Both the position numbers and the translations under genes were made by a program. Under the pieces are notes generated by a model. That model was not told the DNA's origin. It was given only the letters and a program-made list of their open reading frames with translations, and ran no database searches. Below, piece after piece: positions 5,300 through 8,726 of a stretch of 49,718 bases of DNA. Source of the DNA: a virus. The stretch lies in the IMG/VR virus record IMGVR_UViG_3300042691_013934, positions 1 through 49,718 of that record. One strand, given 5' to 3'. Numbering within the stretch: the stretch's first letter is position 1; each line of letters starts with the position of its first letter.

Positions 5300-5389
5300 G
5301 TCAGCAAAACGCTTCGTGATGTCAGCAAAACGCTGACTTCGGTCAGCAAAACGCTGCCCTTTGTCAGCAAATCGCTGACTTCGGTCAGG
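5300..5389 (-). repeat. 21-base tandem repeat, four copies plus a partial
   Basis: GTCAGC recurs at 5300, 5321, 5342, 5363 and as GTCAGG at 5384, an exact 21-base period. The unit contains an inverted repeat GTCAGC-AAAAC-GCTGAC. The block sits just after the stop of the gene ending at 5385 and before promoter-like element D. In one minus frame it would encode heptads with QRFAD, but that frame has no start codon. It may be iterons, hairpins or the relic of a coiled-coil gene. Confidence 0.75.
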
Positions 5390-5904: not shown

Positions 5905-6669
5905 CTAGGCTTTCGCGGCCTCGTAGGCGGCTCTGGCGGCTTCGTATGCGGCGCTCAGCAACCCGAGCTTTGCTGCGCCTTCGATCAGGTCGGCGTTGTT
6001 GCTCGCCTGTGCCAGTTCAACCAGCTTTGCAACGCGGTTGGTTGCGAAGTAGGGGATGCTCACGAGCAGATGCGATTTTGGCCAGACAGAGGTGCAGTCG
6101 TTGTTGGCGGCGCATGCAGTCCAGAAGGCGTTGCGCTCAGCATACAAAGCGCCGTTAATTGCCTGATCTGCTGCGTCGGAAAACTTCTCGCCAAACTTCA
6201 CCAGATCGCGTTTTGCGAGCGCCACAGCGCCGCTCAGAGCGCGGATTCCGGTGCGGGTTGCCTTTGCGGCGGCCTGCACAGACTCAACCTCGTCAACGGT
6301 TGCCTGCGCTTTTAGTGCCCAGTTCGCGAGGCGGGCGGTTGTCCAAGTGATGTACTGCTTGCGACCAGCCTGTGCCCGCTGCTCGGCTTTCCAAGCGGTC
6401 ACTGCTGGGCATGCTTCCCATCTGCTGGCGACCGTGCGCTCAGGGCATTCAGTCGGCTTGAATGCTGCGACAGCGGCCTTGCAGCTCTCCAGTTGCGCTT
6501 CAGCGTATGCCTTGGAGACTTCCAGAGGAAGGTGGCCGGAGCCCAAGCAAGCACCCGACTGCCAGCCCCAAGCGAGCGTGTAGCCATGCTTGGCCACGCG
6601 ATTGGTGCGAGCGTCGGTTTTTTGGGTGCTTTCGCAGATCTGGCAGGTTCCGTAGTTTGTTGCTTTCAT
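5905..6669 (-). CDS. Conserved phage protein with N-terminal C-x2-C and GY motifs
   Basis: The 254-residue product opens with GTCQICESTQKTDARTN and RVAKHGYTLAWGWQSGACLG, a pattern I recall from many phage and plasmid accessory proteins (a C-x2-C pair, HGY, a later cysteine). The remainder is alanine-rich and helical, with EVESVQAAAKATRTG in the middle and an almost pure alanine/glutamate helix at the end. The N-terminal cysteines may bind zinc. It is the first gene behind promoter-like element A. Function unknown. Confidence 0.65.
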   Translation of the reverse strand: MKATNYGTCQICESTQKTDARTNRVAKHGYTLAWGWQSGACLGSGHLPLEVSKAYAEAQLESCKAAVAAFKPTECPERTVASRWEACPAVTAWKAEQRAQAGRKQYITWTTARLANWALKAQATVDEVESVQAAAKATRTGIRALSGAVALAKRDLVKFGEKFSDAADQAINGALYAERNAFWTACAANNDCTSVWPKSHLLVSIPYFATNRVAKLVELAQASNNADLIEGAAKLGLLSAAYEAARAAYEAAKA

Positions 6670-6670
6670 A

Positions 6671-6742
6671 GTGGTTTTTGGTTGGTTGTTGCTGACGAGT
6701 TAATACTTGCATAACCCAAGCAGGCTGGGAACTACTTTTTTT
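6671..6742 (-). promoter_or_regulatory. Promoter-like element, copy A
   Basis: Minus strand: A7-G, 15 bases, TTGGGTT, 16 bases, GTCAG, CAACAACCAACC, then ATG at 6669. A TTCCCA box and an AAGTAT box are 17 bases apart and could be -35 and -10. The region 6743-6859 between this element and the terminator at 6860 holds no supportable gene. Confidence 0.55.
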
Positions 6743-7213: not shown

Positions 7214-7537
7214 TTACAGGATCGAGTTGAGTGCCTTTTGCAGGTCGTGCCGGACGCCCGCCCGAATGCGTTGCGCCTCTTTGATGGCCTCCCCCTTGAT
7301 CTGGTCGGCCTCACGCTCTGCCTTTTGGCGAGTGGTCGCAGCAGCGGACTGTGCGCTGTGCAGCAGCTCGTCCTGAGCCTTGCGGGCGTCCGCCAGCGTA
7401 AGCAGCGGGATGAAGTCGCTCATCAGGTCACGCTCCAGTTCGCACGTTACGCTGGCCAGCCACGGCCCGAGGTAGGATGCGGTGCCGAGGTCGGCAATGG
7501 CCTTGCGGAGGATTTCGAGTTCTTGGTTCTTTGTCAT
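7214..7537 (-). CDS. Helical hypothetical protein
   Basis: The start at 7537, directly behind promoter-like element B, gives 107 residues beginning MTKNQELEILRKAIADLG. The C-terminal half is a long amphipathic helix (QSAAATTRQKAEREADQIK), likely a coiled coil. An in-frame upstream ATG at 7597 would place its start inside the promoter-like element and is rejected. No family recognised. Confidence 0.65.
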   Translation of the reverse strand: MTKNQELEILRKAIADLGTASYLGPWLASVTCELERDLMSDFIPLLTLADARKAQDELLHSAQSAAATTRQKAEREADQIKGEAIKEAQRIRAGVRHDLQKALNSIL

Positions 7538-7539
7538 GG

Positions 7540-7611
7540 CGTTGGTTAGGTTGTGGTTTCTGCTGACTCGGGCATTCTTGCATAACCCAAGCGGCACGCA
7601 AGAACTTTTTT
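7540..7611 (-). promoter_or_regulatory. Promoter-like element, copy B
   Basis: Minus strand: A6-G, 14 bases, TTGGGTT, 16 bases, GTCAG, then ACCACAACCTAACC and ATG at 7537. Candidate boxes are TTGCGT and AAGAAT with 16 bases between. The A-tract overlaps the stop codon of the upstream gene, so any transcript from the ribozyme operon would read through it. Confidence 0.55.
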
Positions 7612-7906
7612 ATCCGTTGGCGATTTTATCTGCTTTTGCCAGCGCCCGAGCCACTAGCTCGTAGACTTCGTCGTCGCTGTACGCTTGGAAGGCGATGCCT
7701 CCACCGTACTGGCGGTTGTGAAACTTCTTGCCGCCAAGTTTTCTGGCCTTCCAAAGCGCGAGGTCGTAAAGGCTTCCGGTGCTTATCAGTTTCTGCGATG
7801 CCCGTTCTGCGCGGTCGGCGTCCGTGATGAACGCGAGGAAGTGGATAACGCGGCGCGGGTTGCCGTTTACGTCGTTTTTGATGCGTGTGATGGTGTAGTC
7901 GTTCAT
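7610..7906 (-). CDS. Conserved small phage protein behind ribozyme 2
   Basis: The 98-residue protein begins MNDYTITRIKNDVNGNPRRV and continues IHFLAFITDADR, then KKFHNRQYGGGIAFQAYS. The ITRIKNDvNGNPR and YGGGI.FQ.Y patterns are familiar from small phage proteins of unknown function. Its mRNA 5' end is probably set by the hammerhead ribozyme 34 bases upstream. The leader is A/C-rich (ACCAAACCAACCAAC) with no Shine-Dalgarno sequence. It is the third gene of the small operon that starts at promoter-like element C. Confidence 0.7.
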   Translation of the reverse strand: MNDYTITRIKNDVNGNPRRVIHFLAFITDADRAERASQKLISTGSLYDLALWKARKLGGKKFHNRQYGGGIAFQAYSDDEVYELVARALAKADKIANG

Positions 7907-7939
7907 GGATCGATAAGTTGGTTGGTTTGGTTCTCTGAC

Positions 7940-7995
7940 GGCCTCGTCAGTGCCCGCATTACGGGTCAGACAGGGGATGGAACCCTGTTTCGGCC
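7940..7995 (-). ncRNA. Type II hammerhead ribozyme, copy 2
   Basis: Minus strand, 5' to 3': stem II strand GGCC (7995-7992); GAAA (7991-7988); stem III CAGGG/CCCTG around a seven-base loop (7987-7971), extended by the A15.1-U16.1 pair; GUC cleavage triplet with the cut expected between 7969 and 7968; stem I UG-A-CCCG/CGGG-CA with one bulged A and loop UAAUG (7968-7951); CUGACGA core (7950-7944); stem II strand GGCC (7943-7940). All catalytic core residues of the hammerhead are present. Stem II is the open stem, which defines type II. It starts one base after the TAG of the upstream gene. Confidence 0.9.
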
Positions 7996-7996
7996 T

Positions 7997-8206
7997 CTAG
8001 TACCCGTTGGCTTCGGCCCATTCCGTAATCCGATCAATGGTGTCGGGATTCACGGTGTGTTCGCCGCCAAGTGTGGTTTCAAGGAGGCCAGTATCCTGAA
8101 GAGCCGCGAGGCTTGCAGCGTACTTGCCTTTTTCAATCCAGCACTGGGTGGAGTCGTCGCAGATGGAGATTTCAACGGAGTATCCTGAGATTTTTGTGGT
8201 TTTCAT
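7997..8206 (-). CDS. Small acidic protein between two ribozymes
   Basis: This 69-residue acidic protein (MKTTKISGYSVEISICDDST, ending TIDRITEWAEANGY) has no recognised family. Hammerhead copies lie immediately before and after it, so self-cleavage would leave it on its own monocistronic RNA. The leader is ACCAACCAACCAAACC without a Shine-Dalgarno sequence. The stop codon TAG is one base from the start of ribozyme 2. Confidence 0.65.
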   Translation of the reverse strand: MKTTKISGYSVEISICDDSTQCWIEKGKYAASLAALQDTGLLETTLGGEHTVNPDTIDRITEWAEANGY

Positions 8207-8239
8207 TGGTGGGTAGGTTTGGTTGGTTGGTTCTCTGAC

Positions 8240-8289
8240 GGCCTCGTCAGTGGCGGCATTACCGCCAGACGCCCGAAGGCGTTTCGGCC
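8240..8289 (-). ncRNA. Type II hammerhead ribozyme, copy 1
   Basis: Minus strand, 5' to 3': stem II strand GGCC (8289-8286); GAAA (8285-8282); stem III CGCC-UUCG-GGCG (8281-8270) plus the A15.1-U16.1 pair; GUC triplet, cut expected between 8268 and 8267; stem I UGGCGG/CCGCCA with loop UAAUG (8267-8251); CUGACGA core (8250-8244); stem II strand GGCC (8243-8240). Every conserved core base is present. Stems III and I differ in sequence from copy 2 yet pair well, and the stem I loop is identical. It abuts the TAA of the upstream gene and lies 34 bases before the next ATG. Confidence 0.92.
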
Positions 8290-8601
8290 TTAGTTTGCAA
8301 TGCCGTGGAACTCGCGTCCAAGGTCATCGTTTGCAATTGGAGTAGCTTGGGCGGCTGCTGTAAGGCGCTCATTATTTTCCCAACCGACAAGCAGTTGATT
8401 TACGAAGGATTTGGCGTCTCCGAAACTAAAAGCGATTTCGAGAGGATTATCGTTGCCGATGCCATATACATACCAAACGACTGCCTGAAGCTCAGGATCG
8501 AGCAGCCACTTCTGATCGAATGATTTAATAATGTAACCACGGTAAGCGTAGTGGCCTTTTGCGATGCGTTTTGCGGTGTGTTTTACGGTTTGTTTTTTCA
8601 T
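8290..8601 (-). CDS. Hypothetical protein, first gene of ribozyme operon
   Basis: The ATG at 8601 follows promoter-like element C and gives 103 residues beginning MKKQTVKHTAKRIAKGHYAYRG. A basic N-terminus precedes a compact alpha/beta part (YIIKSFDQKWLLDPELQAVVW) and helices. A longer form from 8709 would start inside the terminator hairpin and is rejected. Ribozyme 1 begins right after its stop. Function unknown. Confidence 0.6.
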   Translation of the reverse strand: MKKQTVKHTAKRIAKGHYAYRGYIIKSFDQKWLLDPELQAVVWYVYGIGNDNPLEIAFSFGDAKSFVNQLLVGWENNERLTAAAQATPIANDDLGREFHGIAN

Positions 8602-8674
8602 GTCTGTGTTTGTGTTGGTTGTTACTGACGAGACCAATCTTCCATAACCCAACCGAAGCCTCAACAACTTTTTT
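8602..8674 (-). promoter_or_regulatory. Promoter-like element, copy C
   Basis: Minus strand: A6-G, 15 bases, TTGGGTT, 16 bases, GTCAG, AACAACCAACAC, then ATG at 8601. TTGAGG and AAGATT are 17 bases apart and could be -35 and -10. It lies directly behind an intrinsic terminator, the expected place for a promoter that restarts transcription. Confidence 0.6.
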
Positions 8675-8684
8675 CGCAATAAAC

Positions 8685-8726
8685 CAAAAAAAACGCGCAA
8701 CACCCACAATTTGCGGATGTTACGCG
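8685..8726 (-). terminator. Intrinsic terminator after the replication genes
   Basis: The minus strand forms a twelve-pair stem with two G-U pairs (8726-8715 with 8705-8694) and is followed by eight T. It lies about 20 bases after the stop of the DnaC-like gene and ends the DNA-metabolism transcript. Confidence 0.9.

Follow-up and report, generated by a model that had tools for sequence, protein, structure and literature searches.

The window analysed here comprises the whole of one 49,718-bp IMG/VR virus record; its first 25 kb had no near DNA match in a phage collection. On its minus strand lies a cassette of three small genes (A, B and C) parted by two predicted hammerhead ribozymes (Table 1). 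According to family searches, the minus-strand genes before the cassette encode a RusA-like resolvase, a DUF1376 primosomal protein and a DnaC-like helicase loader. The elements of the cassette follow one another as the original prediction, made from the bare sequence, had them: terminator, promoter-like element, gene A, ribozyme 1, gene B, ribozyme 2, gene C, promoter-like element. We found no relatives of gene A in Pfam, PHROG, phages or viral contigs, and no significant relatives of gene B in family and phage searches; gene C has 47 relatives in viral contigs.

Table 1. Features of the three-gene cassette, in window coordinates and in order of transcription
Feature	Position	Strand	Description
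Intrinsic terminator	8694-8726	-	15-pair stem followed by T run; 3' of the DnaC-like gene, upstream border of the cassette
Promoter-like element TTGGGTTATGGAAG (putative function)	8639-8652	-	Upstream of gene A; one mismatch relative to the identical copies at 7577-7590 and 6706-6719
Gene A, 103 aa	8290-8601	-	ORF; stop TAA at 8292-8290
Type II hammerhead ribozyme 1	8240-8289	-	Predicted cut between 8268 and 8267; RF02276 28.6 bits and structural detector
Core-tail hairpin of ribozyme 1	8235-8250	-	CUGAC (8250-8246) with GUCAG (8239-8235); N7 and N' covary across the subclass; minimum-energy fold of the 3' product
Gene B, 69 aa	7997-8206	-	ORF; ATG at 8206, stop TAG at 7999-7997
Type II hammerhead ribozyme 2	7940-7995	-	Predicted cut between 7969 and 7968; RF02276 29.8 bits and structural detector
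Core-tail hairpin of ribozyme 2	7935-7950	-	CUGAC (7950-7946) with GUCAG (7939-7935); same basis as for ribozyme 1
Gene C, 98 aa, TreK-like family PF24229	7610-7906	-	Pfam E 2.7e-15; ATG at 7906
Promoter-like element TTGGGTTATGCAAG (putative function)	7577-7590	-	3' of gene C, start of the next unit; exact repeat of 6706-6719

A sigma-70 scan of the cassette gave no promoters, and a search for a phage single-subunit RNA polymerase was without a match, as was its control search. The leaders behind the promoter-like element (6655-6719, 7526-7590 and 8588-8652, minus strand) carry GTCAGnAACAACCAACC before the ATG, a feature they have in common with the leaders borne by the ribozymes (GTCAGAGAACCAACC); nothing resembling a Shine-Dalgarno sequence is evident. 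Elsewhere in the window, 5300-5383 is a short tandem repeat with a unit of ~21 nt (GTCAGCAAAACGCTG...).

Judged by core, stems and cut site, both sites in the cassette are type II hammerhead ribozymes with predicted cleavage. The conserved core (CUGANGA and GAA-A) and U16.1-H17 at the cut are present in both copies; in model alignments and structures stems I and III are loop-closed and stem II is open, and both ribozymes share a GGCC stem II. Both align full length (1-66) to the Rfam model Hammerhead_II (RF02276), with E 0.002 for ribozyme 2 and E 0.004 for ribozyme 1 (2.4 kb searched). A default Rfam scan reports no ribozyme at either site because both score under the gathering cut-off of this family, 37 bits; the cut-off is a database threshold and not a biochemical criterion, and the model under-scores the subclass to which these copies belong (below). 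Our own structural detector, which demands the core, three stems and a U-H cut site, finds exactly two ribozymes in the window, scoring 16 and 17, and 200 shuffled windows yielded one match scoring at least 16. In 2.6 Mb of loci the detector made 342 matches against 1 in shuffled DNA, a figure that measures specificity and not frequency because many of these loci were fetched by a hammerhead pattern match. By these detector and shuffle controls, a chance origin of the two sites is excluded. A pseudoknot between loop I and the 3' tail is typical for type II hammerheads, being reported for a majority though not universal; it is absent from both copies, where the longest loop I-tail complementarity is 2 bp.

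The original prediction held that each ribozyme begins zero or one base past a stop codon, and this is confirmed: ribozyme 1 begins 0 nt after the TAA of gene A and ribozyme 2 begins 1 nt after the TAG of gene B. It further put the end of each ribozyme exactly 34 nt before the next ATG. The end of stem II is indeed 33 nt from the ATG in both copies (the difference is a counting convention), but the two modules share 82% identity over 61 nt, leader included, reaching into the start codon; since the copies are a duplicated module, their equal spacing is not independent evidence. Among type II ribozymes generally the distance to the ATG is broad (median ~25 nt, mostly 16-45), and it is 39 nt in a related phage. 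We therefore reject the fixed spacing as a sign of function, as the copies are duplicates and relatives vary.

The join to the stop codon is a different matter. We collected hammerheads of all three types (I, II and III) in viral contigs by patterns fixing core bases only, and counted a join where the stop of the upstream open frame (at least 50 codons) fell within -2 to +3 nt of the ribozyme edge; expected counts came from random positions in the same contigs. Among the matches listed from viral contigs, joins were found for 107 of 205 type II ribozymes (~4.4 expected), 48 of 144 of type I (~2.4 expected) and 0 of 90 of type III (~1.8 expected), and type II ribozymes in bacterial genome assemblies had a join in 20 of 72 among the matches listed (1.5 expected); these counts express a strong tendency and not exact rates, because the samples are non-random, relatedness links the sequences within a phage lineage and ORFs were called by a simple rule. 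The ribozymes of one locus are all on one strand, no locus having both strands, and at 37 of 112 type II loci among the matches listed there are at least two co-oriented ribozymes, often 250-400 nt apart. The window likewise has two co-oriented ribozymes flanking single genes of a phage genome. Annotated genomes agree: the Streptomyces phages R4 (L714), Yara (L715), Paedore (L716) and Spernnie (L719) have 2-6 unannotated type II hammerheads at consecutive early-gene junctions, and ribozymes start 1-4 nt past deposited CDS ends in four of four cases in Paedore, at 2-4 nt, and one of two in R4, where the ribozyme begins 4 nt past gp78. The join to the stop codon is thus a strong recurrent rule in phages, as would be expected if the cut separates cistrons. 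We also noted in phage R4 a type II hammerhead (L714 819-870) that overlaps the annotated start of an acetyltransferase gene (CDS from 864); this start may have been misassigned, or cleavage may take away some of the leader.

The related contig IMGVR_UViG_3300034104_004892 matches the gene order of the window from the primosomal protein through the DnaC-like loader and small genes up to a gene C homologue. A single ribozyme lies in its collinear stretch, 39 nt ahead of the next ATG and directly past the TAA of a different gene; the gene C homologue has none in front. About 6 kb away is a second three-gene set parted by two ribozymes, one of which overlaps a TAG by its G. From this comparison, genes change and the junction layout stays. 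A tie of the ribozyme to gene C was considered and rejected, since the fetched flanks of the gene C relatives gave a strict type II match at 0 of 47 loci, although this contig has ribozymes at other junctions; nor did any close relative turn up in which ribozymes surround genes A, B and C. The original interpretation, that self-cleavage would split one tricistronic transcript into single-gene mRNAs with the same layout expected in relatives, is partly supported: co-oriented ribozymes fill the junctions and the stop-codon join recurs in phages, while the ATG distance varies.

Both window ribozymes have a 3' tail, GUCAG, that is the exact complement of their own core CUGAC. We use this to define a subclass, in which N'UCAG directly 3' of stem II pairs with CUGAN7 and N' is complementary to N7; both copies belong to it. 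Searching viral contigs with CTGACGAGGCCGTCAG gave 122 exact matches, 105 of them strict type II hammerheads and several more relaxed ones. Because that search had fixed the tail, we counted tails in an unbiased set: of its 197 deduplicated ribozymes, 20 have N'UCAG directly past stem II, against 0.8 expected. For all of those 20, N' is complementary to N7 (8 C-G and 12 T-A); among tails lacking UCAG, C7 goes with A in 30 cases and with G in 4. A further scan fixed UCAG and left N7 and N' free; with the biased loci left out it yielded 75 ribozymes, in which the N7-N' pair is C-G in 15, T-A in 58, T-G in 1 and a mismatch in 1, so that the two positions covary in 73 of 75. Each of the four stem II backgrounds has C-G as well as T-A ribozymes (Fisher 9e-15, which is optimistic owing to relatedness). 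In alignment A1 (74 sequences), 99.8% of cells are paired and the covariation score is 0.221, against 0.063 when shuffled and at most 0.066 with slid partners; it exceeds all 500 shuffles and every slid version, although stem II contributes to the figure and, because the search fixed the remaining positions, only N7-N' varies within the core-tail helix.

Among the 205 type II matches listed, the core-tail helix is found in 26, the loop I pseudoknot in 87 and both in 1. A hidden loop I pseudoknot in the core-tail subclass was therefore rejected, the pseudoknot being nearly exclusive with the helix and the window copies offering 2 bp at most. In 115 of 115 members, no fold of the 3' product has a lower energy than the core-tail helix. 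For the uncut RNA of these 115, the core-tail hairpin equals or slightly exceeds the active fold in stability (median 0.9 kcal/mol, range -0.3 to +3.9, energies calculated without tertiary contacts and Mg2+). We saw no ribozyme of the core-tail class in bacterial chromosomes, as covered by the type II set from bacterial genome assemblies. In the related phage, one ribozyme (L641 16106-16162) has an extended, diverged 8-bp core-tail helix, CUGACGAU/AUCGUUAG, with an extra U before stem II. On balance we lean, by a little, towards the view that a widespread phage type II subclass has a covarying second fold that sequesters its own core, acting between genes either as a one-way cut-and-lock element or as an on/off switch.

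Type III stands apart. Cleavage of types I and II leaves the stem III hairpin near the 3' end of the upstream product, whereas in type III one stem III strand only is left there. The stretch from stop to cut in type III is more structured than its own shuffles (median z -2.2, 52% at p<=0.05) when set against control spacers (median z -0.4, 25% at p<=0.05), and a hairpin ends at most 5 nt from the cut in 38 of 50 cases. This pattern would fit an upstream message whose 3' end needs to be structured; some of the spacers may hold ordinary terminators. As for the downstream product, a latch in every hammerhead type was considered and is not supported for type III (8 observed against 8.5 expected). 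In type I, complementarity between the 3' strand of stem I and the next 25 nt was seen in 18 of 134 (7.1 expected), which weakly hints at a similar product fold.

Taking together the anatomy of the cassette, the placement of its junctions and the core-tail covariation, we consider it fairly probable that the cassette is a self-processing polycistronic mRNA with a core-tail latch. A single transcript would span genes A, B and C, and each type II hammerhead would fold once transcribed and cut between stems III and I. The upstream mRNA would then end in its stop codon, 22-27 nt and the stem III hairpin with a 2',3'-cyclic phosphate, and the downstream mRNA would start with a 5'-OH on a flush stem I hairpin. 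At that point the type II products would be held together by stem II (4 bp) alone. The tail N'UCAG would now capture the used core CUGAN7, forming a second hairpin whose loop contains the stem II 5' strand; this capture would free the products and block their re-joining, including that of ends from different cuts, and the 5' leader left behind would be doubly structured. The 5'-OH and flush 5' hairpin may shield the downstream mRNA from 5'-end-dependent decay; however, a 5'-OH is not always protective, since RNase J1 breaks down the mRNA downstream of the glmS ribozyme once that ribozyme has cut (PMC3997798).

The main rival to such one-way processing is a regulated switch, in which the core-tail hairpin is an off-state until a ribosome, a protein or transcription speed frees the core, so that cleavage is conditional. 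The energies calculated for the 115 members are what keep it in play, since two folds so near in stability mean that the hairpin could also hold the uncut ribozyme off; the loop I pseudoknot, which supports activity, and the core-tail helix almost exclude one another, and this too speaks for a switch. Yet we saw neither a conserved ligand-like domain nor a downstream gene in common, and the active fold is already complete when transcription reaches the tail, which favours cutting first and locking afterwards; we consider the switch rather unlikely.

Two further explanations carry less weight. The duplicated stop-ribozyme-leader module might persist chiefly because it offers shared DNA for gene shuffling, RNA cleavage being incidental, and the 82% identity of the two copies over their 61 nt, the different flanking genes in the window phage and its relative, and the 47 gene C relatives in which no type II ribozyme was detected would all agree with such a linker. 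What makes it improbable is that different hammerhead topologies occupy the same kind of junction, and that compensatory stem changes and the core-tail covariation point to RNA structure under selection. Least probable of all, to the extent that we give it very little weight, is a circular mRNA, formed when gene B RNA freed by the two ribozymes, with its 5'-OH and 2',3'-cyclic phosphate, is ligated into a circle by the ribozyme or a host ligase. The matching GGCC of the two stems II would let the end halves reassemble, but the core-tail hairpin would disfavour this, and when Perreault et al. searched tandem hammerheads for products that were circular or spliced, they detected none (PMC3088659).

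What phage hammerheads do has been a question since their discovery in 2011. The sharp placement rule (stop, ribozyme, leader, start), repeated at many unrelated junctions, argues that cistron separation is the job. Type III, without the join but with a hairpin before the cut, suggests that a structured 3' end on the upstream message is part of the role. With a core-tail helix, one of the best-studied ribozymes would gain a new functional part, and the otherwise unconstrained N7 would acquire a use. Because Streptomyces phages that can be cultured have such arrays, the placement question can be tested directly, and the helix could be tested by single and compensatory mutations.

Single-gene mRNAs as such are not a new idea: Perreault et al. 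in 2011 proposed that clustered prophage hammerheads yield single-gene-length mRNAs, and tandem hammerhead arrays cleave in vitro, one array also in E. coli (PMC3088659). Stop codons go unmentioned in the main text of that paper (PMC3088659). Neither the stop-codon rule nor a core-complementary tail turned up in our literature searches, which is weak evidence given that most subscription journals fell outside them. The window ribozymes are a subclass variant of the known type II hammerhead (RF02276, PMC3088659), with the same permuted three-stem architecture, open stem II, CUGANGA and GAAA core and GUC cut site; they differ in scoring below the gathering cut-off, in lacking the loop I-tail pseudoknot, and in having a tail that complements their own core, with covariation at N7. 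The prophage clusters (PMC3088659 Figure 3, for example the ardA array of Agrobacterium tumefaciens) resemble the cassette in their co-oriented hammerheads around single genes and in the role proposed for them, although the genes are different. Streptomyces phages R4, Paedore, Spernnie and Yara also have ribozymes directly past CDS stops at consecutive junctions, although their tails (AGCC, CAAGG etc.) are not of the N'UCAG type. The glmS ribozyme-riboswitch, in which self-cleavage of an mRNA also leaves downstream coding RNA with a 5'-OH, has an unrelated fold, depends on a metabolite and directs its cleaved message to decay by RNase J1 (PMC3997798).
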